From: Hyphomonadaceae bacterium | Lineage (GTDB): Bacteria; Pseudomonadota; Alphaproteobacteria; Caulobacterales; Hyphomonadaceae | Direction of reading: 5' to 3' | Assembly (NCBI GenBank): GCA_030697555.1 | Contig: JAUYPV010000017.1 | Span: 62,001-126,000 of the forward strand | Length of the DNA stretch: 64,000 nt | Shown here: one piece after another, positions 22,197 to 50,024 of the stretch | Layout of the letters: each line of letters opens with the position of its first letter | Numbering within the stretch: the first letter of the stretch is position 1 | Notes under the pieces: generated by a model | The model's input: only the letters and a program-made list of their open reading frames with translations | Told to the model about the DNA's origin: nothing | The model's database searches: none | Translations under genes and position numbers: made by a program

Positions 22197-26634
<4,438 letters not shown>

Positions 26635-26638
<4 letters not shown>

Positions 26639-29250: not shown

Positions 29251-32200
29251 TCAAACTCCTGCTTCGCTGATCCGGTTTTCATTGGATGCTTGACGCATCC
29301 CGCCGCGGCGGCGGATCAGTAAGAACGCCGCAGGAATGACAAAGAGAGAAAGAAGCGGAGCGCTCAGCATACCGCCGACGAGCGGCGCTGCAATCCGGCG
29401 CATGACCTCGCCGCCGGTTCCGCCGGTAAAGAGGATGGGCAACAGGCCGGCCAGCACGACGGCGACGGTCATCGCCTTCGGGCGGAGCCGCAACAGCGCG
29501 CCTTCGCGAACCGCCTCGGCGACCGTGGCAGGCGTGATCGCCTCACCGCGATCGACGCGCTCCTGCAGTGCATTGCGGAGATAGACCAGCATCACCACGC
29601 CGAATTCGGCGGCGAGACCCGCCAGCGCGATGAACCCCACCGCGACCGCCACCGAAAACTCATAGCCCATCAGATAGATGAGCCAGACCCCGCCGGTGAG
29701 CGCGAACGGCAGGCTGGCCATCACAAGCATGGCTTCGTCCGCCCGCCGGAAGGTCATGTAGAGGAGAAGGAAGATGATCACGATTGTTGCAGGGCCCACC
29801 AGCGCGAGACGTTGCGCGGCCCGCTCGAGATATTCAAACTGCCCGGAATAGGAGACCGTCACGCCCTCCGGCAGCGAGGTCGCTGCAACGGCGGCCTGGA
29901 TATCGCCGACGACCGAGGCGAGATCGCGGCCCCGCACATCGACGAACACGAACGACGCCAGCCGCCCATTCTCGCTGCGGATCATGGCCGGGCCGTCGGC
30001 CACGGAAACCCTGGCGACTTCGCCGAGCGTCAGAATGAGGCCCGCCTCGGTGACAATCGGCAGGGCCGTTAGCCGATCGGTCGTGTCGCGGAACTCGCGC
30101 GGATAGCGCAGGCTGATCGGGTAGCGGGCGCGGCCGTCGATGAATTCGCCGATCTGCTCTCCGCCGATGGCGCCCGACACCACCTCCTGGACGTCGGCGA
30201 CGTTGAGGCCGTAGCGGCTGGCGGCGAAGCGGTCGATGTCGATGTCGACATAGCGGCCATTGGCCAACCGCTCGGCGGCGGATGACGAAACGCCCTCCAC
30301 GCCCCTGGCCGCCTGTTCGATCGTGGTCGCCGCGCTTTGGATGGTGGCGAGATCAGGCCCGCTCACCTTGACGCCGATCGGACTCTTGACCCCTGTCGCC
30401 AGCATGTCGATGCGGTTGCGAATCGGCGGGACCCAGACGTTGGTGAGGCCCGGCACGCGCACGGCCGCGTCGAGCTGCTCGATAATACGCTCGGGTGTCA
30501 TGCCAGGCCGCCAGTCTGCTCGTGGCTTGAGACGGATCGTGGTCTCGAACATTTCGAGCGGGGCTGGATCGGTTGCGGTCTCGGCGCGGCCGGCCTTGCC
30601 GAACACGCTCTCAACCTCCGGCACCGTCTTGATCATCCGATCTGTCTGCTGGAGCAGTTCAGAGGCCTCCGACGCTGAAAGGCCTGGCAAGGCTGTCGGC
30701 ATGTAGAGCAGATCGCCCTCGTCCATCATCGGCATGAACTCGGCCCCGAGACGTGAGATTGGCCAGGCCGTGCTCGCCAGCGCCATCAAGGCGATAACGA
30801 TCACGACGACAGGTTGTTTCAGGGTAAAGCCGATCGCCGGCCGATAGATCGTCGACAGCACGCGATTGATCGGGTTCGCGGTCTCGGACGGAACGCGACC
30901 GCGAATCCAGAACCCCATCAGAACAGGCGTCAGCGTGACCGAGAGCGCCGCCGCGGCTGCCATGGCGTAGGTCTTGGTGAAGGCGAGCGGCGCGAACAGC
31001 CGGCCCTCCTGCGCCTGCAGTGTGAATACCGGCAGGAATGAAAGCGTGATGATGATGAGGCTGAAGAACAGCGCCGGGCCGACTTCGATCGAGGCCTGCG
31101 CGATGACCCACCAGTGGGCCTCGCCCTTCGGCATGGCGCCGCCATTGTCATCGCGCCAGCGCTCCAGCTTCTTGTGGGCGTTCTCGACCATCACGATGGC
31201 GGCGTCCACCATCGCGCCGATAGCGATGGCGATGCCCGAGAGCGACATGATATTGGCCTCGACGCCCTGCACCCGCATCACCAGGAACGCCGTCGCGATC
31301 CCGAGCGGCAGGGTGACGATAGCGACCAGCGCCGAGCGCAGATGGAAGAGGAAAAGCGCGCACACCAGGGCGACGACAACGAACTCTTCGGTCAGCTTGT
31401 GGGTAAGGTTCTCGATCGCGCGATCGATCAAGGGTGCGCGATCATAGGTGGTGACAATCTCGACGCCGGCTGGCAGGCGCGGCGCAACCGCCTTGAGGCG
31501 CTCCTTGACTGCGGCGATGACCTCGCGCGCATTCGCTCCGGCGCGCATCACGATGACGCCGCCGGCGACCTCGCCCTGCCCGTTAAGTTCGGCAATCCCG
31601 CGCCGCATCTGGGGACCGATTTCGATCCAGGCGATGTCGCCCAGCGTTACCGGGACACCGCCTGCGGCAAGCTTCAGCGGGATGGCGCGGAAGTCATCAT
31701 CGTTGCGCAAATAGCCCGAGGCGCGAACAACGTGCTCCGCCTCCCCAATCTCGATCGAGGCGCCGCCGGCCTCAGAATTGGCGCGGCGGACTGCCTCGGC
31801 GACCATGGCCTGCGTCACGCCGTAGGTCGCCATCTTCTGAGGATCGAGCACGATCTGATGCTGGCGCACCATGCCGCCGACAGCTGCGACCTCGGCAACG
31901 CCCGGCACGGACTTCAATTCGAACGACAAGAGCCAGTCCTGCAGTGCACGCAGCTCGCCGAGGTCCTGGCCGCCTAATCTGTCGACCAGCGCATACTCAT
32001 AGACCCAGCCGACGCCGGTGGCGTCCGGCCCCATGCTGGTTCTGGCGCCTGCGGGCAGCCGCGCCTGTGCCTGGGTCAGGTATTCGAGCACGCGCGAACG
32101 CGCCCAATAGAGATCGACCCCGTCATTGAAGATCACATAGACGAATGAGTCCCCGAAGAAGGAGAAGCCCCGCACGCTTCGGGCGCCCGGAACCGAGAGC

Positions 32201-32418
32201 ATCGTCGCGGTCAAGGGATAGGTGACCTGGTCTTCGACGATCTGCGGCGCCTGTCCCGGATAAGTCGTCCGGATCACCACCTGCACGTCGGAAAGATCAG
32301 GCAAAGCATCGACCGGTGTCGACCTGATCGCGATGCCGCCCGCGACCGCTAGCGCCAGCGCGGCCACAACGACAAGGAAGCGGTTGGCGATCGACCAGCG
32401 GATCAATGCCGCAATCAT
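29251..32418 (-). CDS. cusA: CusA-type copper/silver RND efflux pump
   Basis: The 1055-residue pump starts at the ATG at 32418. It has the HME4 motif [20 protein letters not shown] near residue 400, and the three methionines known to bind Cu+/Ag+ in CusA are conserved in context: DLLYMP, PLEMFE and RIDMLATG. This points clearly to copper and silver. Its start overlaps the cusB stop by four bases. Together with the czc unit the cell has two separate RND pumps with complementary metal range. Confidence 0.93.
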
Positions 32419-33893
32419 CGCCCGCCCCCGACGCGCTCGATCGTCTCGATCACGTAGCCGCCGCCGGCCTTTCGGAAGGTGAACGTCACCTCGTCGCCGA
32501 CGGCGATGTTTTTCATGCCGCCCGGACCCCACGCGAACTGCATGGTCATGGCGGGCCAGTTGAGCCGCGCCACCGGCGCGTGGGAGAGCGTGATCCCCTT
32601 GTCGTCGATCGCGGTCACGCGCCCGGTCGTGGCGTAGGGTGCATCCTGCGCGGCTGGCGGACTCGCCTGCAGCCGCGCCATGACGCCCGTGAGGCTTGCT
32701 TCGGAATCGATCAGGAACTGGCCGGAGGCGACAACCTTCTGTCCCTCGCTCAGACCCGAAATAATCTCGGTGCGATCGCCGGATGTCGGGCCCGTGTCGA
32801 CCTCGGTCGGCGCGAATCGGCCATCCTCCAGAACCGCGATGACAACCGTCCGGCGGCCGGTGCGGATCACCGCCTCCGAGGGCACGACCAGCGCCTCGCG
32901 CGGCGCCGCATCGGAAAGGTCCGCCTCGCCTGTCATGCCCGGCCGCAGCCGGCCGTCAGGATTGGCGAGCGCCACGCGGACCTCGATCGCGCGCGACGCC
33001 GCGTTGGCCGCCGGGAGAATAGCCTCGATTTTTCCGGTGAACGCTTCTCCGGGATAGGCGGGAAACCTGGCGGACGCGCGCCCGCCGGGTTTGAGCGGCC
33101 CGGCCGCTCCCTGCGGCGCCGAAACCATCAGCCAGACAGGCGATAGTCCGTTGATGCTGGCGATTGCGGCGCCAGGTTCAACTGTCATGCCTTCCCGCAC
33201 ATCGAGCGAGGTAAGCGCACCCGTGATCGGCGCCCGGATGATGAACACCGACGGCGCGACTGCGCTCGCCTCCGCCTCGCGTGTCGCGTCCGCCGGAACA
33301 CCAAGCATGGCCAGCCTCTTTCGGGCGGCGGCGGCGAGCGCCGCATCGGCACCTTTGGAAAGCGCCAGATATTCCGCCAGCGCTCCGGTCCATTCCGGCA
33401 CGCGCAGATCAACAAGAGCATCGCCTGCCCGTACGATATCTCCGATGGCGCGACGGTGGCTCCGCTCGACGAACCCACCCTGCTTGGCTTGAACGATGGC
33501 CACATCGCGCTCATTGAAGGCGATCACGCCGGAGGCGGTGATGGAGGCCTTCACCGGCTCCTTCACGGCGACCGCGAAACGTACGCCGAGATTCTGGGCG
33601 ACGCCGGGATCGATGCGCACGCCCGGCGCAGCTTCCGGTTCGCCTGCGTAGCGAGGAACCAGCTGCATATCCATGAAGGGCGACTTGCCGGGCTGGTCGA
33701 AATGCTGGTCCGGGACCATCGGATCGTACCAGTAGAGGACTCGGCCGCCGTCCGCTGTGGTCTGCCCGGCCATGTCCATCGAGGGACGCTGCGCCAGCCA
33801 GAAACCGATCCCGACGCCGGCGGCGACCAGCGACAGTCCGACGACGGATGCGATGGCTACCCGTCTCAAGTCGAATTTCCTGCTGGCGCTCAT
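32415..33893 (-). CDS. cusB: CusB-type adaptor with fused C-terminal CusF domain
   Basis: This 492-residue adaptor has an N-terminal membrane anchor (about 12-34) and then a heavy-metal-binding segment ([19 protein letters not shown] with Met-rich FMDMQLVP). The fusion-protein core includes [15 protein letters not shown] and [19 protein letters not shown]. Residues ~415-492 are a CusF domain with His in SHAPVAR and Trp/Met/Met in NWPAMTMQF at CusF spacing. The fusion puts a copper donor on the adaptor itself, in addition to the free CusF encoded two genes later. Confidence 0.92.
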
Positions 33894-35122
33894 GGCGCGA
33901 CCTCGCCGTATTCGAGACTGAGGACGGCGTCGAGCCTGTTCAACCGATGCTCGAGATCGATGCGTTCCAGCTCCGCTTCCCGGGCCTCGCGGCGGATGGC
34001 GATGAGATCGGCGAGCGGTAGCGTGCCGGCCTCATGGGCCGCCGCCGCCACGGCTTCGCGTTGCCGTGCGAGCGGCAGGACCACATCGCGCGCCCGCATC
34101 AGGCGTTCGCCGAGCGAAGCATGTTCCGCCAAGCGCGCCTCAAGCATGGCGCGGTGCTCCCTGACCATCGCCTCGCGCTCGGCGTCTGCCCGGCGGATAT
34201 CCGCTCGCCTGGCGTCGATCGTCGGGGACTGCCGCGTCGACTGGAAGAGCGGCAGGCTGAATTTGAGGCCGAAGGACACCATGTCGCCGAAGTCGGGATC
34301 GCGCCGGCCATACATCAGCGACCACGACCAATCCGGCTGCTTGCCAGCGCGCGCAATCTCGTACTCGGACCTCGCGCGCTGAATCTCGGCTGACGACCCG
34401 GCCAGCTGCACATGGTTTTCCAGGTGGCCGCGCAGATGTTCCGGATCGATCGCGAAGACAGGAGCGGCGGGCCCGGGCAGATCGTCGCCGATCGGGCCGA
34501 CCCAACGCTCCAGCTCGGCACGCGCAGAGGCGGTCATGAATTTTACTTCCGCCAGACGATCGGCGATCTGCGCTAAGTCCATGCGCGTCTTCAGGGCTGC
34601 ATCGGCCGGCGCCGCGCCGGAGGACAGGCTCGCAGTCGACGCTTCGCTCAGCGTTGCGACATCTTCGGCGAGTTGCCGAAGCACCCTTTCCCGCGCCGAG
34701 GCGAAGTAGGCGTCAATCCACGCCGTTGCGACGGCAAGCCGTGCTTCCAGCCGGGAGACCTCAAGCGCTGCTCCAGCGAGGCCCGCGTCCGCAGTCGCAA
34801 GGCCTGAACGCGCACGCCGGAGCGCGTCGCTGGGCACGTCCTGCATGACGCCGACGCTCAGCATGGTCATTTCGTCTCGGTTGAGACGAAAGCGATCCGC
34901 GCCCGTGACGGGGAAGTTATCCAATCCCAGCGCCAATTGCGGATCTGGCAGCTCGCCGGCAGGCCGGATGGAAAGGCGCGCCGTCTCCACCGCGGCCTTT
35001 CGCGCGGCGATGCTGGGTCCATCGGCGCTCGCGCGGGCGATGGCCTCGGCGAATGTCAGCGGATCGGCCGCAGCTGACGGCGCCAGGCCGACGGCGCAGC
35101 ACAAAAGCCATGCGTAACGCAT
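33890..35122 (-). CDS. cusC: CusC-type outer-membrane factor (TolC family)
   Basis: The 410-residue product has a signal peptide (LLCCAVGLAPSAAAD) and two outer-membrane-efflux repeats made of long helices, e.g. ADAGLAGAALEVSRLEARLA and RADAEREAMVREHRAMLEA. It supplies the outer-membrane channel of the Cus pump and overlaps cusB by four bases. It follows the small Cys-rich gene by 73 bases. Similarity in role to czcC at 26635 is expected; the two differ widely in sequence. Confidence 0.85.
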   Translation of the reverse strand: MRYAWLLCCAVGLAPSAAADPLTFAEAIARASADGPSIAARKAAVETARLSIRPAGELPDPQLALGLDNFPVTGADRFRLNRDEMTMLSVGVMQDVPSDALRRARSGLATADAGLAGAALEVSRLEARLAVATAWIDAYFASARERVLRQLAEDVATLSEASTASLSSGAAPADAALKTRMDLAQIADRLAEVKFMTASARAELERWVGPIGDDLPGPAAPVFAIDPEHLRGHLENHVQLAGSSAEIQRARSEYEIARAGKQPDWSWSLMYGRRDPDFGDMVSFGLKFSLPLFQSTRQSPTIDARRADIRRADAEREAMVREHRAMLEARLAEHASLGERLMRARDVVLPLARQREAVAAAAHEAGTLPLADLIAIRREAREAELERIDLEHRLNRLDAVLSLEYGEVAP

Positions 35123-37235: not shown

Positions 37236-37296
37236 GTGTTGGCGCTGCGGTCAAGCAAGGAGGGAGCACCCGGCAGATTTTCTTAGGGCACGCTGA

Positions 37297-37321
37297 GGGT
37301 TACTGAACGCCGCTGCGTATT
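37297..37321 (+). promoter_or_regulatory. Candidate ECF promoter (island motif) for the methyltransferase
   Basis: GGGTTA, 13 bases, CGTATT; ends 45 bases before the GTG start. One of twelve sites of the form GGGNNN-N13-CGTAWN in the copper island. Confidence 0.6.
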
Positions 37322-37366: not shown

Positions 37367-38389
37367 GTGGGCGACCTGACCGACTTCCTGCAAAGCCCGG
37401 TCACAGGCCGCGGGCTGCACTGGACACCGGATAACCGCCTCGCCACTGACGGTGGGCCATCTTATGCGTTCCGCGATGGCGTTGCATGCCTGTTGCCTGA
37501 AGCCGGCGGCGGCGTCGCGGCGAGCGACGCCAGCCAAACGGTTCGCGACTTCTATGAAACCGAGGGATGGGCTGAGGACGACGAGGGGTTGTTCGGCGAC
37601 ACCAAGGCGTTTGTCGATACGCGTGCGGTCTCGCTCGCCTTCACGCGCAAGTGCATGGCCCGGCTCAGCAGACATTTCAGCAAGGGCGGACGATACCTGC
37701 TCGACGCCGGCAGCGGCGCAATCCCGCACAAGGAAGTGTTGGCCTATGGAGACCAGTATGAACAGCGCGTCTGCGTCGATCTTGCGACGTCGGCCCTGCG
37801 GAGTGCGCGATCAAAGCTCGGCGAGCGGGGAATATACGTGCAAGGAGACTTGACCAACCTGCCGTTCAAGACCGGGTCGTTCTATGCGGTTACGTGCAAT
37901 CATGTGATTTACCAGATTCCTCTCGAGCATCAGCCGGCCGCTTTCCGCGAACTCTGGCGGGTTCTGAAGCCGCGCGGCTTCGGCGTCGTCGTTTACTTGT
38001 GGTCCTACGTGCCGCTGGCGCGGCGCCTCGAACGGCTCGCGCGGCTATTCATGGGCAAACGCGTCATGGACTTGGTCGAAACAGCAAAGCCGTCCGAGCC
38101 TCTGCCCGAACTCTCTCATCACCCTCAACGGCGATCCTGGTTCGAGGCGCAGGATTGGCCCTTCCGCTACACATTCGACACGTTTCGCATTGTCGACAAC
38201 GCCTTCCTGTGCAGCCACATTAGCGATGACTGGCGCGGCCGCGCATTTCTGAGAGCACTTTTCGCGTCACAGCAGCTCGCCCCGGGTTTTTGCGGGAGAT
38301 ACGGCGCATTCCCGGCGATCATCATTCGCAAGCCACGCACCGCCGCCTGGCGATCTATCGTCGAAACACCGCTAACAGTTCCTCGATGA
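37367..38389 (+). CDS. SAM-dependent methyltransferase (class I)
   Basis: This 340-residue enzyme starts at GTG, with AGAAGAGG about 7 bases upstream. Residues 1-45 resemble a Trm112-like N-terminal module (FLQSPVTGRGLHW, then YAFRDGVACLLPE). The Rossmann fold has motif I LLDAGSGAIPHKEV, motif II acidic CVDLATSALR, and GDLTNLPFKTGSF with NHVIYQI. The substrate is unknown; similar proteins modify quinones, lipids or small molecules. It is preceded by a copy of the island promoter motif, and its last 35 bases overlap the csoR 3' end on the other strand. Confidence 0.8.
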   Translation: MGDLTDFLQSPVTGRGLHWTPDNRLATDGGPSYAFRDGVACLLPEAGGGVAASDASQTVRDFYETEGWAEDDEGLFGDTKAFVDTRAVSLAFTRKCMARLSRHFSKGGRYLLDAGSGAIPHKEVLAYGDQYEQRVCVDLATSALRSARSKLGERGIYVQGDLTNLPFKTGSFYAVTCNHVIYQIPLEHQPAAFRELWRVLKPRGFGVVVYLWSYVPLARRLERLARLFMGKRVMDLVETAKPSEPLPELSHHPQRRSWFEAQDWPFRYTFDTFRIVDNAFLCSHISDDWRGRAFLRALFASQQLAPGFCGRYGAFPAIIIRKPRTAAWRSIVETPLTVPR

Positions 38390-38621
38390 CCTTTTCCTGC
38401 TCCGCCACGTTCTTCGATTTCATCGCGCGGTGAACGCAGTGACCAAGATGCTGGCGCAAAAGATCGCTTTCAACGCGCGTCAGCGCAGCACGGGCCGCTT
38501 GGATCTGAGTCACGACATCGATACAATAGCGGTCCTCCTCCACCATCCTGGCGATGCCGCGAATCTGCCCTTCAACACGATTGAGGTTCTTCAGCGCTTT
38601 TTCGGATGCCGCTCTTTCCAT
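38355..38621 (-). CDS. csoR: CsoR-family copper-sensing repressor
   Basis: The 88-residue all-helical regulator has the Cu+ ligands of CsoR at the exact spacing: Cys33 (RYCID), His58 and Cys62 (HLGHC), i.e. +25 and +4. The Asn and Arg at NLNRVEGQIRG form the DNA-binding face. In the family, Cu+ binding releases the repressor. It is divergent from the copper ATPase gene, and two matching operators lie between them, so it should control that pump and itself. The end overlaps the convergent methyltransferase gene by 35 bases. Confidence 0.93.
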   Translation of the reverse strand: MERAASEKALKNLNRVEGQIRGIARMVEEDRYCIDVVTQIQAARAALTRVESDLLRQHLGHCVHRAMKSKNVAEQEKVIEELLAVFRR

Positions 38622-38702: not shown

Positions 38703-41171
38703 ATGGCCGACCATCATCACGCAGACAGCCCGCAAAAGGACCCGGTCTGCGGCATGACGGTGAAGGCCGACACGCCGCACCGGCTTATGCATGAAGGCCG
38801 AGAGGTTTTGTTCTGCAGCGCCGGTTGCCGCACCAAATTCCAAGCTGAGCCGGCGCGCTATGCGAAACGGGCGTCGCCAAAAGATCATGCCTGCTGCTCG
38901 CCAGCCGAAGTGAAGCCCGACCACCTTCACCACCGTGATGATGGTCATCATCGCGATCACAGCAAGGTCGCTGCCGTCGGAGCTGCGCCTCCAGGCGCGA
39001 AATGGACCTGCCCGATGCACCCCGAGATCATGCGCGACGGGCCCGGCTCCTGCCCGATCTGCGGCATGGCGCTTGAGCCGATGATGCCGACGGCGGACGC
39101 CGGGCCGAACCCGGAGCTTCGCGACATATCGCGGCGCTTCTGGATCGGCGTCGTGCTGACTCTGCCCGTCCTTGCGCTGGAAATGGGCCGCCACCTCTTC
39201 AATGTCGATGCGCTCGTGCCGCCGTACATCAACGGCTGGGTTCAATTCGCGTTGGCGACGCCGGTCGTGATCTGGGCCGGCTGGCCCTTCTTCGAGCGCG
39301 CCTTCGCCTCGCTGGTGTCGCGCAATCTCAACATGTTCACGCTGATCGCCCTCGGGACGGGCGTGGCCTGGACTTATAGCGTCGTTGCGACGCTGTTGCC
39401 GGCGGCGTTTCCGCCCGAATTCCACGGCGAGCATGGCGAGGTCGCCGTCTACTTTGAGGCTGCAGCCGTCATCACCGTCCTGGTGCTGCTCGGCCAGGTG
39501 CTGGAGCTGCGCGCCCGCGAGCGCACCGGCGGCGCGATCCGCGCCTTGCTCGGTCTTGCGCCCAAAACCGCACGCCGCATCGAGAACGGCGACGAGGCGG
39601 AAGTACCGGTCGATGCCATCGCTGTTGGCGACCGGCTCCGCGTGCGTCCCGGAGAGAAAACACCGGTTGATGGCGTCGTTGTCGACGGCCGTTCGACCCT
39701 CGACGAATCCATGGTCACGGGCGAATCCATGCCTGTCACCCGCACAGTCGGCGATGCGGTCATTGCCGGGACGCTCAATCAGACTGGCGCTCTGGTGATC
39801 GAGGCGACGCGCGTCGGGCGCGACACTATGCTTTCGCAGATCGTACAGCTGGTCGCTGAAGCGCAGCGCAGCCGGGCCCCGATCCAGCGCCTGGCCGACA
39901 AGGTGTCCGGCTGGTTCGTGCCTGCGGTCATCGGTGTAGCCCTTCTCGCCTTCTTCGGCTGGTGGGCGTTCGGTCCGGAGCCATCCTTCACCTACGGCCT
40001 CATCGCCGCCGTGTCGGTTCTCATCATCGCCTGCCCCTGTGCGCTGGGCCTCGCGACGCCGATGTCGATCATGGCCGGAGTGGGCCGCGCGGCGCGCCAG
40101 GGCGTTCTCATCCGCAACGCGGAAGCGCTCGAACGCCTCGAGAAGGTCAACACGCTGGTGCTCGACAAGACCGGCACGCTGACCGAAGGCAAGCCCGGCG
40201 TCGTCGCCATCAATACAGTCGACGGAATCGCCGAATCCGATCTCATCCGCCTCGCCGCCAGCCTAGAGCAGCGCAGCGAGCATCCGCTAGCGCTCGCCAT
40301 CGTGGCGGCCGCCAAGGAACGGACAATCGGTCTCATCGAGCCGACCGAGTTCGACTCGCCGACCGGCAAGGGCGTCATCGGCCAGGTCGAGGGCCGTCGG
40401 CTTGCGATTGGCGCCGAACGCTATCTCGATGAACTGGGTATTCCGACCGCGACACTCAGGGCTGAAGCCGAACGCCTTCGCGCCGACGGCGTCACGGCGA
40501 TCTTCGTTGCGATCGACGGTAAGCTGGCCGGCGTTCTTGGTATCGCCGACCGGATAAAGGCGACGACACCAGAGTCGCTCAAGGCGCTCCGCGCCCAGGG
40601 CATCGAGCTCGTCATGCTGACGGGCGACAACCGCACCACGGCGGAAGCGGTCGGCCGCATGCTCGGCATCACCAACGTCGAAGCCGAGGTTCTGCCCGAG
40701 GACAAGTCGCGCATTGTCGAAAGGCTAAAGCGCGTAGGTCGCATCGTCGCCATGGCGGGAGACGGCGTTAACGACGCGCCGGCGCTCGCCGCCGCTGATG
40801 TTGGCATCGCCATGGGCACCGGGACCGACGTTGCGATCGAAAGCGCCGCCGGCACGCTGCTGCGCGGCGATCTCGCCGGCGTCGTCAAGGGACGCGCGGT
40901 CTCGCGCGCGACCATGGCGAACATCCGCCAGAACCTCATCTTTGCCTTCGGCTACAACGCCGCCGGCATTCCGATCGCGGCAGGCCTGCTTTACCCACTC
41001 ACGGGGCAACTGCTTTCACCAATGCTGGCGGCGGCGGCGATGGCGCTGTCCTCGGTGTCGGTCATCGTGAACTCCCTGCGGCTCGGCGCCGCAGAGCCTG
41101 CCGAAACGAAGCAACCCGTGTCCCTTCCGCCCCTGCCCGCAGCCCGGGCTTCCAGCGGCGGTTGCCACTAG
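38703..41171 (+). CDS. copA: Copper-exporting P1B-type ATPase with YHS and metal-binding N-terminus
   Basis: This 822-residue pump has an N-terminal YHS/TRASH domain ([12 protein letters not shown], then [10 protein letters not shown]), a His-rich linker ([14 protein letters not shown]) and a heavy-metal-binding domain ([26 protein letters not shown]) instead of CxxC HMA domains. The membrane metal site is CPC ([13 protein letters not shown]), the phosphorylation site DKTGTLTEG, and the hinge [23 protein letters not shown] and CsoR control indicate Cu+ export from the cytoplasm. The C-terminal SSGGCH may add a ligand. It is followed by copC-copD after 110 bases. Confidence 0.93.
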
Positions 41172-41197
41172 ACAATCGTCCGGCGCCAATCGCATGA

Positions 41198-41222
41198 GGG
41201 GTCGACCACGGCGCTGCGTATA
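41198..41222 (+). promoter_or_regulatory. Candidate ECF promoter for copC-copD
   Basis: GGGGTC, 13 bases, CGTATA; ends 59 bases before the copC ATG and 27 bases after the copA stop, so copCD can be expressed apart from the CsoR-controlled pump. Confidence 0.65.
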
Positions 41223-41281: not shown

Positions 41282-41638
41282 ATGAAGACTCGCCTGCTCG
41301 CAGCACTTTTCGCCGCGGCCATGCTCAGCGCAATGCCGGCTTTCGCCCATGGCGGCATGGTCGAAACCAGCATTCATGACAACGCCAAACTCCCGCAGGC
41401 GCCCGTGGACTTTAAGGTGACCTTTGAGCACCCGAGCGCCATTACCAGCATGATGCTGATGACGGCCGACAAAAAAATGATCGGCCTCGACTTCAAACCG
41501 TCGAAAGCTCTCGGTACGGAATTCACGATCCCGCTGCCGCAGCTCGGCAAGGGAAGCTACACCCTGTCGTGGAAGTCGATGGCCAAGGACGGCCATGCCA
41601 TGCCGGGCGCTGTGCGGTTCACTGTTACCGGCAACTGA
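41282..41638 (+). CDS. copC: CopC-like periplasmic copper-binding protein
   Basis: The 118-residue protein has a signal peptide (LFAAAMLSAMPAFA) that would leave His as the first mature residue (HGGMVETS). A DGH motif occurs near the end (SMAKDGHAMPGAVRF). An N-terminal His with a DxH site is the Cu2+ site of CopC. The fold is a single beta-sandwich. It lies 4 bases before copD and probably hands copper to it. Confidence 0.88.
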   Translation: MKTRLLAALFAAAMLSAMPAFAHGGMVETSIHDNAKLPQAPVDFKVTFEHPSAITSMMLMTADKKMIGLDFKPSKALGTEFTIPLPQLGKGSYTLSWKSMAKDGHAMPGAVRFTVTGN

Positions 41639-41642
41639 CCAC

Positions 41643-42494
41643 GTGACGGGGGACGCGCTGTCGCTTCTCTTATTCGCCGACCGGATCGGCCTGAACGTCG
41701 CAGCGCTCCTCGCCATCGGCTTCGCGCTCCATGCCGCCTTCGGCGTTGTGGAGCGCGATGGGTTTAAGCGCCTGCGTTGGCTCCCTCTTGCGACGGCTGC
41801 CGGAGTCATCGTTTTTGCAGCCGCGCGGCTTCTGATCCTCAATGCCCAAATGGGCGACGGGACATCTATCTTTGACCCGGAACTGTTCCCGCTGAGCTGG
41901 ACGGCGCTCGGGCCGTCCACAACAGCGCTCGTTGGCGGGGCTATGCTTGCCACGGTCGCGCTTTGGGTTGGATCGCGCGTGCTGGCGGCGGTCGGCGCCG
42001 TGGTGCTTTCCATGGGTTTCGGTCTCACCGGCCACACGCAGGGGCTGACCGAGCCCGGCGTCATACCGACCATGCTGGCCTCGCATGTGTTCATTGCGGG
42101 CTTATGGGTCGCGGCCCCCGTCACACTCTATCCCGGCACTGCCATCAGCGACGCGGCGCTAGTCGCGCGCCTGAAACGCTTCAGCGCCATTGCGATTGCC
42201 GCAATCCCATTGCTGATCGTCCTTGGCATATGGCTGGCCTGGGTGCTGGCCGGCGGCTTTGAGCCGCTTGTCGGGTCGGCCTATGGCCGCCTTCTGCTGC
42301 TGAAATTGGCGGTAGGACTCGCGGCCATGGGGCTCGGCGCTGTTAACAAGCAAATGGTGACAGCCCGCATTGTGGCCGACCCGGCGAAGGGCCGTCGGTG
42401 GCTCCGCCTGACGCTCACCTTCGAAACGATCCTCTTTGCCGTGGCGATTCTGGCGGTCTCGGCCGCCACGACCATCGCCGCACCGGATGAATGA
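41643..42494 (+). CDS. copD: CopD-family inner-membrane copper protein
   Basis: The protein is 283 residues from GTG at 41643, 4 bases after the copC stop; an ATG at 41595 would overlap copC by 44 bases and is less likely. About eight membrane helices are present, with the family pattern ADRIGLNVAALLAIGFALHAAFG at the start, PGVIPTMLASHVFIAGLWVAAP in the middle and LLLLKLAVGLAAMGLGAVNK near the end. The His in ALHAAF and in ASHVF are the likely metal ligands. CopD is thought to move copper across the inner membrane with CopC. Confidence 0.85.
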   Translation: MTGDALSLLLFADRIGLNVAALLAIGFALHAAFGVVERDGFKRLRWLPLATAAGVIVFAAARLLILNAQMGDGTSIFDPELFPLSWTALGPSTTALVGGAMLATVALWVGSRVLAAVGAVVLSMGFGLTGHTQGLTEPGVIPTMLASHVFIAGLWVAAPVTLYPGTAISDAALVARLKRFSAIAIAAIPLLIVLGIWLAWVLAGGFEPLVGSAYGRLLLLKLAVGLAAMGLGAVNKQMVTARIVADPAKGRRWLRLTLTFETILFAVAILAVSAATTIAAPDE

Positions 42495-42513
42495 GCCCAT
42501 GCGCAGAACCTGC

Positions 42514-42538
42514 GTGAATTCCGCCGGCGGCGCGTATA
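42514..42538 (+). promoter_or_regulatory. Candidate ECF promoter for the cnrYXH-like operon
   Basis: GTGAAT, 13 bases, CGTATA; ends 32 bases before the first gene. The -35 deviates from GGG at one base. Presence here would make the sigma factor self-activating. Confidence 0.55.
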
Positions 42539-42570: not shown

Positions 42571-42849
42571 ATGCCGCGAGCACTTGAACACCTGCTGACC
42601 AAACTTCAGCGCCAACCGCTTGACCGCTCGCTTGACGGCGTGGCCGACGATGTGAGCCAACGGCTCGCCGAGACCGCCGCCGCAAATGCCGATACGTGGC
42701 GTCTGCGCGCTGTCGCAGTATTGCTCGTGGCCGTAGGCGGCGCGGCCGCGAGCGGATCGATGGCGGCAGTTGCAACGCCTAAATCCGCCTCGCCTTTTGA
42801 AGTCTGGTCGAACCTCGCGCCCTCGACCCTCTTGGAGTCGGCTGAGTGA
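42571..42849 (+). CDS. CnrY-like membrane anti-sigma factor
   Basis: The 92-residue product has a cytoplasmic helical part (LDGVADDVSQRLAETAAAN), one membrane helix (AVAVLLVAVGGAAASGSMA) and a periplasmic tail with ATPKSASPFEVW. Position, size and topology match CnrY of the Cupriavidus cnrYXH system, which holds the sigma factor at the membrane; the ASPF tail also recalls CnrY/NccY. It overlaps the sensor gene by four bases (GTGA). Without database comparison the family call rests on synteny and layout. Confidence 0.72.
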   Translation: MPRALEHLLTKLQRQPLDRSLDGVADDVSQRLAETAAANADTWRLRAVAVLLVAVGGAAASGSMAAVATPKSASPFEVWSNLAPSTLLESAE

Positions 42850-43289
42850 AGGTCTCGGTCAAAAGCGCGCTTATCACCATCACCCTTGCGATCGCCGCCG
42901 GCATCCTCGGCGTCTGGCTCGGCGGACAGATCCTGCCAAAGGGCGCGGATCCCGGCACGTCGCTCCACGCGATGGTGCACGAAGAGCTTTCCCTCTCGCC
43001 GCAACAGGAGAGCGACCTGCACGCAATTGAGCAGTCCTTTGCCGAACGGCGGCACAAGCTCGAGGCCGAGATGCGCAAGGCCAACGCCGAACTCGCGGTG
43101 GCTATTCGCGCGAGCGAGTCAGCGGGGCCGGATGTCGAGGCGGCGGTTCATCATTTCCATGACGCCATGGGGGCGCTTCAGACCGAGACCATTGAACACG
43201 TCTTCGCGATGCGGAAGGTGTTGACGGCGGAACAACGCAGGCGTTTCGACGACAAGATCGCGCAGGCGCTGACCTCCGACACCGAATGA
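42846..43289 (+). CDS. CnrX-like periplasmic metal sensor
   Basis: This 147-residue protein has an N-terminal anchor (ALITITLAIAAGILGVWLGG) and a helical-hairpin sensor domain. CnrX binds Co2+/Ni2+ through His42, His46, Glu63, His119 and Met123. Here His41, His45, Glu62, His118 and Met122 (LHAMVHEEL, IEQSF, EHVFAM) keep all spacings exactly. It should sense a transition metal in the periplasm and trigger release of the sigma factor from the CnrY-like protein. It starts at GTG inside the upstream stop and overlaps the sigma gene by four bases. Confidence 0.88.
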   Translation: MKVSVKSALITITLAIAAGILGVWLGGQILPKGADPGTSLHAMVHEELSLSPQQESDLHAIEQSFAERRHKLEAEMRKANAELAVAIRASESAGPDVEAAVHHFHDAMGALQTETIEHVFAMRKVLTAEQRRRFDDKIAQALTSDTE

Positions 43290-43867
43290 CGCGGGGTGGC
43301 CCGAGCGACAGCGATGCCGTGCTCGCCGCGCTTGCGGTCAAGGGCGACCGCCAGGCTTTCAACCGCATCGTCCAGCGCCACCAGGAACCGCTCTACCAGT
43401 TCATTCGGCGCTATGTCGGCGATGCCGACGAAGCTTATGACCTCTTGCAGGAGACCTTCGTCTCGGCCTGGCAGGCGATCGGACGCTACGATCCAGCGCG
43501 TTCGGCTGCGACCTGGCTGCGCCGCATCGCGCTCAACAAGTGCCGCGATTGGGGACGGCGTCGCGCCGTGCGCCGCTTCTTCTACGGCGCGGCCTCGCTG
43601 GAATCGGCGGACAGCGGGCCGGTCGCCGTGGTCGAAGGCGATACGGATGAAGCGGCCTTGGCGCGGCTCGATCGCGCGGTCGCGGATTTGCCAGGCCAGC
43701 TGAAGGAGCCGCTGCTGCTGACCGCATTCGAAGGGCTGTCGCAGGAAGCAGCCGGCAAGGCGCTTGGCATCACGGCAAAGGCGGTCGAGACGCGAGTCTA
43801 TCGAGCGCGCAAGCTATTGACGGCGGCGCTGGCCGCCGACGGCGTAACCGGTGACGAGAGTCAGTAG
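43286..43867 (+). CDS. ECF RNA polymerase sigma factor (CnrH-like)
   Basis: The 193-residue sigma factor has region 2 (RRYVGDADEAYDLLQETFVS with AWQAIGRYDP) and region 4 (LPGQLKEPLLLTAFEGLSQE, then AAGKALGITAKAVETRVYRA). It is the last gene of a fully overlapping Y-X-H unit, as in cnrYXH. I infer that it reads the GGGNNN-N13-CGTAWN elements found before twelve units in this island, including its own. In Cupriavidus the target is a nickel/cobalt pump; no such pump adjoins it here, and copper genes flank it on both sides. Confidence 0.92.
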   Translation: MTRGGPSDSDAVLAALAVKGDRQAFNRIVQRHQEPLYQFIRRYVGDADEAYDLLQETFVSAWQAIGRYDPARSAATWLRRIALNKCRDWGRRRAVRRFFYGAASLESADSGPVAVVEGDTDEAALARLDRAVADLPGQLKEPLLLTAFEGLSQEAAGKALGITAKAVETRVYRARKLLTAALAADGVTGDESQ

Positions 43868-43908: not shown

Positions 43909-44400
43909 CTATTTTGCGGCTCGGGAAGACCAGTGGATATGGACGATCCGCCAGTCGCCTCCCTCCTTTTTCAGTACCATCGACTCGGTTGAGAAGCTGT
44001 CGACCGCCTTGTCCTTGTAGCGTCCGGTCGTCCGGCTTTCGCTCGCGATCCATGCCGTCTCGCCAGTCGCGACGCCTGACCGCCGCATCAGCGTGGAAGG
44101 CACGGCTGAGGCAAAGGCCGCATCGGCGCCCAGATGATGCGAGGCGTACTCGGACTTCGAGCGTTCGACATAGCCGCCCTCAAAGATAAGGACGCTATCA
44201 GAGAGCAGCGCGAGCGCACCGTTCGTATCGCCCTTGGCCAATGCGGCATGGAACGCTTCCACCACTTTAGCCGCGTCAGCGGCTTCGGGCGATACAGCGT
44301 TGGCCGTTGATGCCGCTGGCGTCACTTGAGCTACCGCCGGCGCGAGTGTCGCGGCAAGCAGCGCAGCACACAGTATCCCTACGCGAGTGCGGATCATCAT
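43909..44400 (-). CDS. Exported NTF2-like (DUF4440/SnoaL-type) protein
   Basis: The 163-residue product starts at one of two adjacent ATGs (44400 or 44397). It has a signal peptide (GILCAALLAATLAPAVAQ), then an NTF2-like fold: AAKVVEAFHAALAKGDTNGAL, LLSDSVLIFEGG, and C-terminal GGDWRIVHIHWSSR. Such proteins are frequent after pcoA/pcoB in alphaproteobacteria, where the role is unknown. It is the third gene of the MCO-copB unit, separated by 55 bases that contain a hairpin. Confidence 0.75.
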   Translation of the reverse strand: MMIRTRVGILCAALLAATLAPAVAQVTPAASTANAVSPEAADAAKVVEAFHAALAKGDTNGALALLSDSVLIFEGGYVERSKSEYASHHLGADAAFASAVPSTLMRRSGVATGETAWIASESRTTGRYKDKAVDSFSTESMVLKKEGGDWRIVHIHWSSRAAK

Positions 44401-44432
44401 GCGGTCCCTTCGGAGCTCAAGTGGTTTGCCAT

Positions 44433-44449
44433 CCCGCCGCGTAGGCGGG
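44433..44449 (-). terminator. Small hairpin between copB and the NTF2-like gene
   Basis: CCCGCC and GGCGGG pair perfectly across GCGTA. It may lower expression of the downstream gene or protect the copB message. There is no T-run in the minus direction. Confidence 0.4.
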
Positions 44450-44455
44450 CTTTCG

Positions 44456-45454
44456 TCAATACCAGGCGCGCAGGCCGACGACAAAACTCGTCGTCTCGGC
44501 GCGTTCCCCGGCGGTGTGCGCATAGTCAGCAGTGTCGCCAAAGCTGCGCTCCCACGAAATCCCCACATAGGGCGCGAACTCGCGCTGGATTTCGTAGCGG
44601 AGGCGCAGACCAAGCTCGGCGTCCGACAACCCCGAACCAACGCCCGTCGCCGCATCGTCTTTGGCGGCGAGGTTAATCTCAGCGCGCGGTTGCAGCACGA
44701 GGCGCTGGGTCAGTTGAAAGTCATAGCTGCCTTCAAGACGCCCCAGCACCTGTCCGCGCTCGCCGACGAACAACGCCGCGTCGGCCTCGAACCAATAGGG
44801 CAGCAGCGCTTCGACGCCGAACGCCAGAAATGTGCGTGACGGGTTGGGCTCGATGTCATGGCGAAGCCCGACCTGGACATCGGTGTAGGGGCCTATGGCG
44901 CGCGAATAAAGCGCTTGCACTTCGGCTTCCTCGATATCGTCGCTCCCCTCGCCTTCGCTCTTGAGAACGAAACGGTCGAGGTCGCCGCCGAACCAGGCCT
45001 CGCCCTCCCAGCGGTAGCCGTCCTCGCCATTCTGGCTCTGGTATTCGAGGAGGTTCGCCATGATCTTCGATTGCAGCGTTCCGCCATGCTCGTTGTCGAG
45101 GATGCCTCGGGCGCGGTCCATGTCAGCCTTCGGGAAGAACTGATCGGCGGCGAAGTCGGCAGGCGCATCCGGCGGAATGTCATTGCCGGCCTCGGGTGGC
45201 GGGACGGCCGCATCCATGACGTGGCCGTCGTGCGGTTCTGCGACCGGCGCCGCTGGCGCCGTATCGTGCTTCTGATGGTCGTCCGGGGCGACTGCCGGCT
45301 GCTTGGGCTGCGCCGCGGGCGGCTGCTTCGGCTCGGCTGCGACCGGCGGCTTGGGCGCAGGCGTGACCGGGGGCGCCTCGTGCTCGACGTGCTGGGCGAA
45401 GGCCGGGCCGCTGAGACCGAAGGAGAGCGCGGCGAGAAGGACGAGGCGGTTCAC
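44456..45454 (-). CDS. copB: CopB/PcoB outer-membrane copper resistance protein
   Basis: The 332-residue protein has a signal peptide (LLAALSFGLSGPAFAQ), a Pro/Ala/His-rich linker (HVEHEAPPVTPAPK to HDGHVMDAA) and a C-terminal beta-barrel (ANLLEYQSQNGEDGYRWEG, QVGLRHDIEPNPSRTFLAFG, YVGISWERSFGDTADYAH). It ends in tyrosine (LRAWY), as outer-membrane barrels usually end in an aromatic. It works with the multicopper oxidase, whose stop it overlaps by four bases. Confidence 0.9.
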   Translation of the reverse strand: MNRLVLLAALSFGLSGPAFAQHVEHEAPPVTPAPKPPVAAEPKQPPAAQPKQPAVAPDDHQKHDTAPAAPVAEPHDGHVMDAAVPPPEAGNDIPPDAPADFAADQFFPKADMDRARGILDNEHGGTLQSKIMANLLEYQSQNGEDGYRWEGEAWFGGDLDRFVLKSEGEGSDDIEEAEVQALYSRAIGPYTDVQVGLRHDIEPNPSRTFLAFGVEALLPYWFEADAALFVGERGQVLGRLEGSYDFQLTQRLVLQPRAEINLAAKDDAATGVGSGLSDAELGLRLRYEIQREFAPYVGISWERSFGDTADYAHTAGERAETTSFVVGLRAWY

Positions 45455-47283
45455 GCGGCGCCTCCCGCGAACGGTCGCACCCTGAACACCTGAAACATGC
45501 CGGCGTGCATGTGATAAAGCATATGGCAGTGGAAAGCCCAGTCGCCGGGTTCAGCGGTGAAGTCGAACTGCACGATCCCGCCCGGGGCGACGATGACAGT
45601 GTGCTTGCGCGGCATGTGTCCGACCGGCGCGTCCTGGGCCAGCTCGAAGAAATGCCCGTGCAGGTGGATGGGGTGCGCCATCATCGTGTCGTTGACCATG
45701 CTGACGCGCACGCGCTCATCCTTGCGGAAGGCGTAGGGCTCGGGCTTGTCGCTGAATTTCTTGCCGTCGAAGCCCCACATGAACCGCTCCATGTTGCCGG
45801 TGAGGCGGATCTCAAGCTTGCGCGAGGGCGCGCGGGTGTCGCGGTTGGGCTCCAGCGCGACGAGATCTCTGTAGACCAGCACGCGGTGGCCGACGCTCTC
45901 CAGCCCCTGCCCGGTCTCACCGGTGCGGTCCTTGGGCATCGGCGCAAGCATCTGAACGCCGGGTCCCATCTTGACCTGGGGCGCGTTCATCCAGTTGCGC
46001 ATCGACATGTCCATGCCTTCCATCGCGGACATGTCGCCCATGACGTCGGAGCCTCGTACCCGCGGCGGCGCTGCGCCCGGAACCGGCATGGCCATGGCGT
46101 CACCCGTCTTGGTGTGGTCCATGCCGGCCGTCGCTCCGTCCTTGTGCATGGAACTCATGTCCATGCCCATGTCCTTCATCGTGGCGAGCGGACGTTCACG
46201 CAGCGGCGGTATGTCCGCCGACATCCCCGCGCGCGGCGCCAGCGTCGCCCTGCCCATTCCCGACCGGTCGACGGCTTCGGAGACGATAGTAAAGGCCCGA
46301 TCCTCTTTCGGCTCGACGATCACGTCATAAGTCTCGGCGTTGCCGATCTGGAATTCGTCGACCACGACGGGTCGGACATTCAGCCCGTCCGCAGCGACGA
46401 CAGTCAGATTGAGCCCCGGGATGCGGACGTTGAAGATGGTCTGCGTGGCAGCGTTGATGAAGCGAAGGCGCACGCGTTCGCCGGGCTTGAAGAGGCCGGT
46501 CCAGTTGTCGCCCGGTCCATGGCCGTTGACGAGGTAGGTGTAGACCGCCCCGGTGATGTCGGAGATGTCGGTCGGGTCCATCCGCATCTTGGCCCATTCC
46601 GTCCGCTCGGCGAGCGTCTGGTCCCTACCCGCAAGAAGGCCGGCCATGGTCTGCTTCTGGTAGTTGAAGACCCCGCCCTCCTGTTTGAGCTTCTGGAACA
46701 AGCGGTGCGGGTGGATGAAGCTGAAATCGGAAAGCACAATGACATGCTCCCGGTCGTAGGCGACGGGATCGGGGCCGGCAGGATCGATAATGATCGGGGC
46801 ATAGTGACCCTCCTGCTCCTGCAGTCCCGAATGGCTGTGGTACCAATAGGTGCCGGACTGCCTGACCGGGAACTCATAAACGAAGGTCTCCCCGGGGCGG
46901 ATGCCGGGGAAGGAGACGCCGGGCACGCCATCCATCTGCACGGGAACCAGGACGCCGTGCCAATGGATCGAGGTGTCCTCGGCGAGCGTGTTGGTGACGC
47001 TAAGCCGAACGGTCTGACCTTCCTTCAAACGGATGATCGGACCGGGCACGGTTCCGTTGATCGCGATAGCATGACCAACGCGGCCGTCGATGCTCAGGTC
47101 GGAATGGCCGATCGTCAGCCGGATGTCCTCTCCCGACAGGAACTTCCCCTCGGGAATGACGCCCGACGATACGTTTTGCGCCCAGGCGGGGAAAAGAGAG
47201 TTCAGCGCGGCGCCGGCTGTCAGGAGCGCAGCGCCGCGCAGGATGCGACGCCGATCAGGATGGAAGCCGTCACCACAACGCAT
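45451..47283 (-). CDS. pcoA: Copper-resistance multicopper oxidase (PcoA/CopA type), Tat-exported
   Basis: The product is 610 residues from the ATG at 47283, which has GAGGAG upstream. It opens with a twin-arginine signal (RRRILRGAALLTAG). Cupredoxin copper motifs are intact: SIHWHGVLV, YWYHSHSG, HPIHLHGHFFEL and HCHMLYHMHAGM with the type 1 Met. A Met-rich insertion at about residues 365-440 (MKDMGMDMSSMHK, MGDMSAMEGMDMSMRNWM) should bind Cu+. The enzyme oxidises Cu+ in the periplasm. The usual symbol is copA or pcoA; pcoA is used to avoid confusion with the ATPase. Confidence 0.93.
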   Translation of the reverse strand: MRCGDGFHPDRRRILRGAALLTAGAALNSLFPAWAQNVSSGVIPEGKFLSGEDIRLTIGHSDLSIDGRVGHAIAINGTVPGPIIRLKEGQTVRLSVTNTLAEDTSIHWHGVLVPVQMDGVPGVSFPGIRPGETFVYEFPVRQSGTYWYHSHSGLQEQEGHYAPIIIDPAGPDPVAYDREHVIVLSDFSFIHPHRLFQKLKQEGGVFNYQKQTMAGLLAGRDQTLAERTEWAKMRMDPTDISDITGAVYTYLVNGHGPGDNWTGLFKPGERVRLRFINAATQTIFNVRIPGLNLTVVAADGLNVRPVVVDEFQIGNAETYDVIVEPKEDRAFTIVSEAVDRSGMGRATLAPRAGMSADIPPLRERPLATMKDMGMDMSSMHKDGATAGMDHTKTGDAMAMPVPGAAPPRVRGSDVMGDMSAMEGMDMSMRNWMNAPQVKMGPGVQMLAPMPKDRTGETGQGLESVGHRVLVYRDLVALEPNRDTRAPSRKLEIRLTGNMERFMWGFDGKKFSDKPEPYAFRKDERVRVSMVNDTMMAHPIHLHGHFFELAQDAPVGHMPRKHTVIVAPGGIVQFDFTAEPGDWAFHCHMLYHMHAGMFQVFRVRPFAGGAA

Positions 47284-47348
47284 AAGACACTCCTCGTTGC
47301 CGGCCCCAAGCCCAAACCCGGTAGTCTGGTGGATTGATTGCTGAAACA

Positions 47349-47373
47349 AATACGCATGCGGCCATCTAATCCC
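47349..47373 (-). promoter_or_regulatory. Candidate ECF promoter for the pcoA-copB unit
   Basis: Minus strand GGGATT, 13 bases, CGTATT; ends 65 bases before the pcoA ATG. Confidence 0.65.
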
Positions 47374-47553
47374 TCAAGCGCCGGAGGCAATTTCTCCAGC
47401 GCTCGATCGCACTAAAAAAACTGCATCTCGGAAACATCTCGCAATAGAGCCTGGCCCCTCCCTCAGCGCGGAGCATATGGAATCCGCGGCAAGTCATCGT
47501 CGGCCCCACACGGGCCGCGAATGCGTCCGGAACCGCAGTCCCGTTGACGTCCG

Positions 47554-49920
47554 TCACGCGACGCGTGCCGAAGCTTGCGACGCGCCGACGACGGAGACTT
47601 GCTTGGCCGGCGCCTGCGGCTCGAGCCGCGTGCGTTTGAGCAGCAGAGCGTTTACGGCCACGATTACCGAACTTCCGGACATCGAGAGAGCCGCGACCTC
47701 GGGGCTCAGCAGGAACGGATAGAACACACCCGCGGCCAGCGGGAAGGCCAGCACGTTGTAGCCGGCGGCCCACCAAAGATTCTGGTGCATCTTGGCCAAC
47801 GTCGCGCGGGAAAGCTCAATGGCGCGCACAACGTCATAGGGATCGTCGCGCATCAGCACCACGTCGGCACTCTCCATCGCCACGTCGGTGCCGGCGCCGA
47901 TGGCGAACCCGACATCGGCCTGCATGAGCGCCGGGGCGTCGTTGACCCCGTCGCCCACCATCCCGACCTTTTTGCCGCTTGCCTGAAGTTCCTTGACCTT
48001 GCTTGCTTTTGCGCCAGGCAGCACCTCGGCGAGCACGGTATCGATCCCGAGCTGGTCCGCGATGCGCCGCGCCGTCGCCTGGTTGTCGCCGGTGATCATG
48101 GCGACTTCCACGCCGCGGCTCTTGAGCCGTGCGACCGCAGCGGCGGCGGTCGGGCGGGCAGCGTCTGCTATTGCAATGAGCCCTATGACCGCGCCGTATT
48201 GCGCGATGTGAGCGACCGTGCGGCCTGAGTCCTGAAGCCGCTCTGACTCGCTCGCGAGCGCGCCCAGGTCGATTCCATTGTCCTCCATAAGCATCCGATT
48301 GCCGGAAAAGATCGTGCGCCCGCCGATCACCGCGCGAACGCCCTTGCCCTCGAACGAGGTGAAGTCCGTGGCCTGCGGCAGCGCCATCCCCTTGGCCCGT
48401 TCCAACACAGCAGTCGCAATATGATGCTCGGAGCCCTGCTCGATAGCGGCGGCTGTGGCGATGATCGTCGCTTCGTCAAAGCCCGGACCGGCAACCACCT
48501 GCTCGACCTTGGGCGCACCCATGGTCAGCGTTCCGGTCTTGTCGAAGATGACGACATCGAGCTTCGCCGATTCTTCGAGTGCGATGGCGTCCTTGATAAG
48601 GATGCCGTGACGCGCGCCGATCCCGGTTCCCACCATGATGGCCATCGGCGTGGCGAGCCCCAGCGCATCGGGACATGCAATGACAAGCACTGTAATCGAC
48701 AGCGTCAGCGCGAACAGCATGGGCTGGCCGAACACAACCAACCAGACGAGAAAGGTGGTCACACTTATGGCGATGGCGGCGATCACGAGCCACTGCGAGG
48801 CGCGGTCGGCGAGCAGCTGAGCGGGCGCCTTGGAGTTCTGGGCCTCCTGCACGAGCTTGACGATCTGGGCGAGGGCTGTGTCCGCGCCAACCTTGGTGGC
48901 GCGGTAGCGAATCATCCCGGTCTTGTTGATCGTGCCGCCGACTACCTGATCATTCACAGTCTTGCTAACCGGCATCGACTCGCCCGTGAGCATGGATTCG
49001 TCGATGTCCGAACGTCCTTCGGCTACAACGCCGTCGACGGGAACCTTTCCGCCGGGTCGCACAACGATCACGTCGCCGACAAGGACTTCGGCGGTGGGCA
49101 TTTCACGTTCGACGCCATCCCGCACAACGGTCGCCTTCGGCGGCGCGAGATCCATCAGCCGGCGAATAGCATCGGACGCGCCGGCGCGGGCGCGCATTTC
49201 GAGCCAGTGGCCGAGCAGGATGAAGACGAGCAGGACGGCGGCCGCTTCGTAGAATTGCGCCCCGCCCCAGACGAATGTGGCGCCGAGCGAAAAGAAATAG
49301 CCCGCGCCGACGCTCAACAGCACGAGCACCGCCATGTTGAAGACGCCGCGGCGGAGGGCGCGGACCGCCGCTGTGAAGAACGGCCAGCCGGGATAGATGA
49401 TCGCGCCGGTTGCCAGGAAGAACAGCGTTAAATCGCGGTCGAGGCCGAAGGGCGGGTCCATGCGGATCGCCTCGAAGCCCATCGGCGCCAGCAGAAAGAT
49501 GGGAATGGCGAAGACGAGCGCGACCAGGAAGCGGTTGCGCATGTCGCGCGTCATCTCCGCCATGTCCATGCCGCCGCCATGACCCATCTCATGGGCCATC
49601 TCGTCATGCGCGGCGCCATGTTTGCGGCGCTTGCCAGCGGCGGGCGTCCCGTGCTCGTGAGCCGCTGGCGGCGCGCCGGATTCACGCGGACAGAGATGGG
49701 ACGGCAGGGCAACGCTACGGCAATGGAACCCACAAGCGCTCACGGCCTCACGCAGAGCTGCCACGTTCGTCTTGCCCGGATCAAATGTGACGGTGACGGT
49801 TCCGGAGCCAAAGGTCGCGCGCGCCTTCGCTACGCCAGGAATGTCCTTCAACGCCTTCTCGATCACGAGCGGATCGAGCGGCGTCACCACGTCTTCCAAT
49901 GCAAGCGTCTCGGTTTTCAT
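47554..49920 (-). CDS. P1B-type ATPase with CPD metal site and degenerate N-terminal HMA domain
   Basis: The pump is 788 residues from the ATG at 49920. Residues 1-70 fold like an HMA domain ([20 protein letters not shown], then VSACGFHC) but the CxxC loop is replaced by VVTPLDP. A His/Met-rich linker follows ([29 protein letters not shown]). The membrane site is CPD ([13 protein letters not shown]) rather than CPC, CPH or [12 protein letters not shown] and [20 protein letters not shown] are intact, so it should be active. Metal is probably copper from context, with uncertain specificity. The 47284-47553 gap holds only the pcoA leader. Confidence 0.88.
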
Positions 49921-49981
49921 GCAGAATCTCCGGCGTTCGGCCAAGCCATAGATGCCAGCCGCAATGGGCCCCGTGCCTAGC

Positions 49982-50006
49982 ATTACGCGCCTCGCGCAAT
50001 TTCCCC
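49982..50006 (-). promoter_or_regulatory. Candidate ECF promoter for the CPD-type ATPase
   Basis: Minus strand GGGGAA, 13 bases, CGTAAT; ends 61 bases before the ATG, in the gap after the acetate kinase stop. Confidence 0.6.
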
Positions 50007-50024
50007 GTATTCTATGGGATGGGC

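Follow-up and report, generated by a model that had tools for sequence, protein, structure and literature searches.

Which metal does a CnrYXH-like signalling unit answer to, and which genes does it control, when it lies among copper genes? In the CnrYXH system, binding of metal to X frees H from Y (reviewed in PMC7689651). A unit of this kind has been found in the window, the 64,000-nucleotide stretch of Hyphomonadaceae DNA analysed here (Table 1). A sequence-only reading of this DNA left two answers standing: a sensor of another metal such as copper, which is now well supported, and nickel or cobalt stress switching on copper genes, which the present results disfavour. We read the YXH unit, with a probability of roughly 0.8, as a copper-responsive branch of the CnrYXH family that controls periplasmic copper detoxification. 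This reading is favoured because of the conserved copper context, the presence of promoter sites at copper operons but not at a CnrA-like pump, and the separate, HxxM-bearing clade to which the sensor belongs. At the level of sequence the regulon is well supported, and copper would be the likeliest inducing signal since the regulon here is a copper regulon.

Table 1. Features of the window relevant to the YXH unit, with positions counted from the first letter of the window.
Feature	Position	Strand	Remarks
Y, putative single-TM anti-sigma factor	42571..42849	+	92 aa; C-terminal SPF...LAPSTLL tail
X, periplasmic metal sensor	42846..43289	+	147 aa; GTG start; TM 5-29; five CnrX ligands and HxxM (H105, M108)
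H, CnrH-like ECF sigma factor	43286..43867	+	193 aa; 42% identity to CnrH
Predicted H-dependent promoter of YXH (autoregulation)	42510..42538	+	PWM 21.5
Predicted H-dependent promoter of copC-copD	41194..41222	+	PWM 27.8
Predicted H-dependent promoter of pcoA-copB	47349..47377	-	PWM 29.3, best in window
Predicted H-dependent promoter of methyltransferase gene	37293..37321	+	PWM 24.8
Borderline site before second P1B ATPase	49982..50010	-	PWM 17.6
copC, periplasmic copper-binding protein	41282..41638	+	Pfam CopC 3e-16
copD, copper membrane protein	41595..42494	+	Longest ORF; Pfam CopD 2e-18
pcoA/copA multicopper oxidase	45451..47349	-	Longest ORF, from TTG; Pfam Cu-oxidase domains
copB, outer-membrane copper protein	44456..45454	-	Pfam CopB 3e-88
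DUF4440/SnoaL-like exported protein	43909..44655	-	Place conserved in sister loci
SAM-dependent methyltransferase	37367..38389	+	Pfam Methyltransf_11
Second P1B ATPase	47554..49983	-	CPD motif in place of CPC/CPH/SPC
CsoR-type repressor, divergent from copA ATPase	38355..38621	-	No H-type site (best 6.4)
copA-type P1B ATPase	38703..41171	+	No H-type site (best 6.7)
CnrA/CzcA-class divalent-metal HME-RND pump operon	22197..27912	-	About 15 kb from unit
CusA-class Cu/Ag RND pump operon	29251..35122	-	Assigned by TM4 motif

Translation of the three genes bears out their positions and their Y-X-H order as first described, with four bases shared at both the Y/X and the X/H junction, an arrangement that is translationally coupled; the 4-bp Y-X overlap is present in 83 of 88 loci. 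The unit had been called a complete CnrYXH-like one, which holds for X and H, while Y lies outside the CnrY/NccY family model. NCBI annotation of the parts is generic, with names such as "periplasmic heavy metal sensor" and "RNA polymerase sigma factor". The closest relative of H in the PDB is CnrH (4cxf, 1e-32), followed at a distance by the next one (3e-19). Expression of a multicopper oxidase is likewise linked to CorE of Myxococcus xanthus, a copper-dependent ECF sigma factor that detects copper on its own by means of a Cys-rich domain at the C-terminus and a CxC in the linker (PMC8999054, PMC10141476). In contrast, H has a single cysteine (C86), no C-terminal extension and membrane partners instead, and its assignment to the CorE type was rejected on these grounds. 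A single membrane stretch is predicted in Y, the tail of which reads SPF...LAPSTLLE, and a small transmembrane protein with a conserved SPF/LAPSTLL tail precedes X in nearly all of the 88 loci. Only the SPF part of this tail is common to CnrY; the CnrY/NccY model (NF033790, NCBI) gave no match to Y even at E 10, and profile comparison with CnrY returned a weak match of 36% probability. The protein is therefore CnrY-like in place, size and terminal SPF motif only, with a weak kinship to CnrY, and may act as the anti-sigma factor of the unit.

The sensor X scores above the gathering thresholds of Pfam Metal_resist (PF13801, 75.4 bits) and LTXXQ (PF07813, 35.2 bits), and its best PDB sequence match is NccX (4clv, 7e-17), with CnrX (2y39 and others) at about 1e-15. 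The PDB alignment places H41, H45, E62, H118 and M122 on CnrX H42, H46, E63, H119 and M123, so that all five CnrX ligands are indeed kept at CnrX spacing. A comparison of predicted structure with CnrX had been suggested as a check; an AlphaFold model built with 33 related sequences (mean pLDDT 89) has a CnrX-type helical bundle and a transmembrane helix at residues 5-29, and finds its best structural match in CnrX (Z 12.5, rmsd 1.9 Å over 104 residues), with CnrX/NccX structures at the head of both structure comparisons. CnrX has also been crystallised with copper (3epv), though Cupriavidus uses it for nickel and cobalt, and copper binding alone is therefore no proof of sensing.

X differs from CnrX in a conserved HxxM (H105, M108). 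In the samples drawn free of any motif pattern, 51 X proteins are not of the Cnr type, and 49 of these have it. In the X proteins linked to cnrCBA or ncc, of which there are five distinct ones (CnrX, NccX, L239, L240 and L202/L203), these positions are Glu and Ala without exception. The scan by which relatives were initially collected used a pattern containing HxxMG, and HxxM as an artefact of that pattern was considered and rejected on the profile search made without it (49/51 against 0/5 of the Cnr type). All five CnrX ligands are kept in 41 of the 51. In L188, L190, L191, L192 and L194, H118 and/or M122 have been lost, whereas HxxM, sigma-type sites and copper outputs are kept; HxxM is suspected for this reason to matter for copper, and may take part in its recognition, although proof is lacking. 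Helix geometry puts H105/M108 some 20 Å away from H118/M122 on the same predicted helix, which would make them a second site or a shifted one. The cnrCBA/ncc-linked X proteins constitute one clade (SH-aLRT 100, branch 1.88) that excludes the X of the window, and because copper- and Cnr-linked X proteins split at one deep branch, the HxxM correlation amounts effectively to one evolutionary event. It can be proposed only tentatively that membrane-borne copper-type CnrX sensors, governing periplasmic copper detoxification by way of an ECF sigma factor, are widespread and owe their copper specificity to an added His-x-x-Met (H105/M108, third helix), kept in some members while H118/M122 are lost.

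The copper genes said to flank the unit are those of copC-copD upstream and of copB-pcoA downstream on the other strand. Translation of copD probably begins at GTG 41643, and that of pcoA must begin downstream of its promoter, probably at ATG 47283 before a twin-arginine leader. The DUF4440 gene is likely to be the last of the pcoA-copB operon. This setting had been presented as if it were rare, which does not agree with the census of related loci. When 84,980 species genomes were scanned with the HxxMG-containing pattern, 375 encoded relatives were obtained; among 87 loci examined, pco/cop genes lie within 10 kb in 74, some copper gene is present in 82, and pcoA, on the same strand, comes directly after X-H in 40. 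Because of the HxxMG in the pattern, the census was repeated by a pattern-free profile search of whole genomes, which found a match in 105 of 299 genomes of the window's order. Among 43 loci found in this way, mostly from that order, pco/cop genes lie within 10 kb in 35, X-H runs into pcoA in 18, and two are true Cnr units that run into cnrCBA. A further nine copper-linked loci and two of the Cnr type came from sampling across the phylum. The copper setting as a one-off island is thereby rejected, and copper genes (74/87, 35/43) are the usual surroundings of this branch in Alphaproteobacteria.

De novo motif search in the regions upstream of Y from 39 non-redundant loci gave GAGGG-N16-CGTA as the top dyad, present in 19 of the 39 as compared to 4-5 in shuffles. 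Refinement led to a bipartite promoter matrix, TGAGGGAT-N14-GCGTAT(A), found in 38 of the 39 loci, in which TGAGGG and CGTA are separated by 16-17 bp. Four sites in the window reach a PWM score of at least 20 (21-29), with none in 100 window shuffles, and those of pcoA, copC and the methyltransferase gene lay outside the PWM training set. When applied to the Cupriavidus cnr locus (L117), the matrix learnt from copper loci matches at 251 (9.1) and at 1625 (15.9, the best of the locus). The mapped transcription starts of cnrY and cnrC lie 24 and 25 bp ahead of the respective genes (PMC9045368), and both matches end 7 bp before these starts, which supports the motif as the promoter of a CnrH-like sigma factor; H would be the factor that recognises it here.

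Counted over all loci, sites lie 5' of pcoA in 40/77, 15/37 and 6/11 cases, of copA ATPases in 1/67 and of CnrC-type genes in 0/26. The methyltransferase gene is a likely member of the regulon: its site recurs in L019 and weakly in L058, with none in L018 or L020, and the copper clusters of Sphingobium likewise have a methyltransferase gene behind copC-copD. The second P1B ATPase is a possible member. A sequencing error is an unlikely source of its CPD form, since this recurs in copper-cluster homologues from Brevundimonas (L054) and the MAG L091. Genome-wide, where the search was made with the strict pattern only, 11 occurrences were found against 2 for the reversed control, three of them within the window. 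The best strict-pattern site outside the window is a near-perfect one at C33:1508, before the twin-arginine leader of a multicopper-oxidase-like gene (C33:1508-1700, L204) that seems to end after about 35 codons and looks like the remnant of another pcoA.

The nature of the outputs bears on the possibility that the unit responds to some other soft metal or to mixed stress (Ag, Au, Zn, envelope damage), with the copper genes serving as a general periplasmic metal defence. CpxP/Spy-type periplasmic stress proteins have the same fold as X, and CusCBA-type operons bear sites in some relatives; both points speak for this explanation. The outputs are nonetheless almost only copper genes, CopC, CopD, PcoA and CopB being copper-dedicated families, and a His/Met set conserved this strictly is indicative of a metal; we consider this explanation improbable. 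Within the present genome, the CusA-like operon has no H-type site (best PWM score -0.4). In its CusB-like adaptor (32415-33893, minus strand), the C-terminus consists of a fused CusF-like copper-binding domain (residues 408-478).

Another explanation, that the sensor still detects nickel or cobalt and that stress by these metals cross-induces the copper genes, draws on the closeness of X to CnrX/NccX in fold and among solved structures, and on its retention of the very five ligands that sense nickel and cobalt in Cupriavidus. The unit had been described as not beside a Ni/Co pump, which is accurate for its immediate neighbours; the same window, however, contains an RND pump with 48% identity to CnrA over 1,076 residues and with the TM4 motif. 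The genome has no other CnrA-class pump, and the PWM found no H-type site at its operon (best -0.4). The pump was accordingly rejected as the true target, and a Cnr-type pump elsewhere in the genome that holds the only functional sites, which had been named as a refutation, was not found. No CnrC-type gene in the copper-type loci has a site either, true Cnr units from this order and phylum lead into cnrCBA and have other residues at 105/108, and some copper-linked X proteins have lost H118/M122 yet keep HxxM and copper outputs. Taken against these points, sensing of nickel or cobalt is quite improbable. That YXH is a non-functional relic left by chance in a copper island is most improbable: the -35 element of the Y promoter is slightly divergent (TGCGTG for TGAGGG), but this variant is conserved in the sister Hyphomonadaceae loci L014, L019 and L020, and the frames are intact, the ligands invariant, the genes joined by four-base overlaps and the target promoters matching.

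A second Y-X pair with a divergent CnrH-like sigma gene (L003 7876-9465; contig C148, about 133.9-135.5 kb) was observed 8-10 kb past the end of the window. In its X the first ligand His is replaced by Asp and HxxM is kept, and its Y is preceded by a site with a 17-bp spacer (PWM 17.1). No pump or copper gene adjoins this pair, which has an ATP-grasp-like ORF and a phosphoketolase among its neighbours.

Under the copper-responsive reading, X would be held in the inner membrane, its four-helix sensor domain facing the periplasm, and together with the small membrane protein Y would keep the sigma factor H inactive. A rise in periplasmic copper would lead to copper binding by X, upon which the X-Y complex would free H. 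The sigma factor would then direct RNA polymerase to TGAGGGAT-N14-GCGTAT promoters and so drive copC-copD, pcoA-copB with the DUF4440 gene, the methyltransferase gene and YXH itself, the last constituting a positive feedback. Cytoplasmic Cu(I) and the copA ATPase would belong to a separate CsoR circuit.

When compared to CnrYXH of Cupriavidus metallidurans (pMOL28; Ni/Co, cnrCBA), the unit shares the gene order, the overlaps, the fold and five ligands of X, the CnrH-like sigma factor, a related promoter class (AGGGG-N17-CCGTATA) and a two-promoter layout comprising the own operon and the output. It differs in that its output is copCD, pcoA-copB and the methyltransferase gene rather than an RND pump, its promoter spacer is usually 16 bp instead of 17 bp, and X has HxxM where CnrX has E/A and Q54, Q130 and F134 where CnrX has E, H and Y; Y falls outside the CnrY/NccY model and X outside the Cnr/Ncc sensor clade. 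The same likenesses and differences apply to NccYXH (Ni/Co/Cd), whose NccX is the top PDB sequence match of X; in both systems an adjacent cnrCBA or nccCBA pump is under a CnrH promoter, whereas no pump adjoins the unit here.

A search of the open literature, conducted outside the main ECF re-classification, returned CorE and Caulobacter SigF as copper-linked ECF sigma factors and no CnrYXH-type copper system. In Caulobacter crescentus, a member of the same order, SigF/NrsF responds to Cu, Cr and Cd stress as a copper-induced ECF sigma factor with an anti-sigma partner (PMC8224329), a pairing similar to that proposed here. NrsF is, however, a different membrane anti-sigma factor, and the SigF regulon consists of sulfoxide reductase and DUF692 clusters, with pcoAB not listed. 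The CopRS, PcoRS and CusRS systems share with the present proposal a periplasmic copper input and control of copABCD/pcoABCD, but they rely on a histidine kinase and a response regulator, whose place next to pcoA and copC would here be taken by the sigma route.

If the copper-responsive reading is true, a transmembrane CnrYXH-type copper circuit would be present in about a third of the sampled genomes of this order, and would explain the regulation of pcoAB and copCD in many alphaproteobacteria without an adjoining CopRS. The circuit would come with a promoter code that is defined and a His/Met signature specific to the subtype. Sister sensors for Ni/Co and putatively for Cu, built on one fold, would together offer a natural pair for testing how a periplasmic site chooses its metal.
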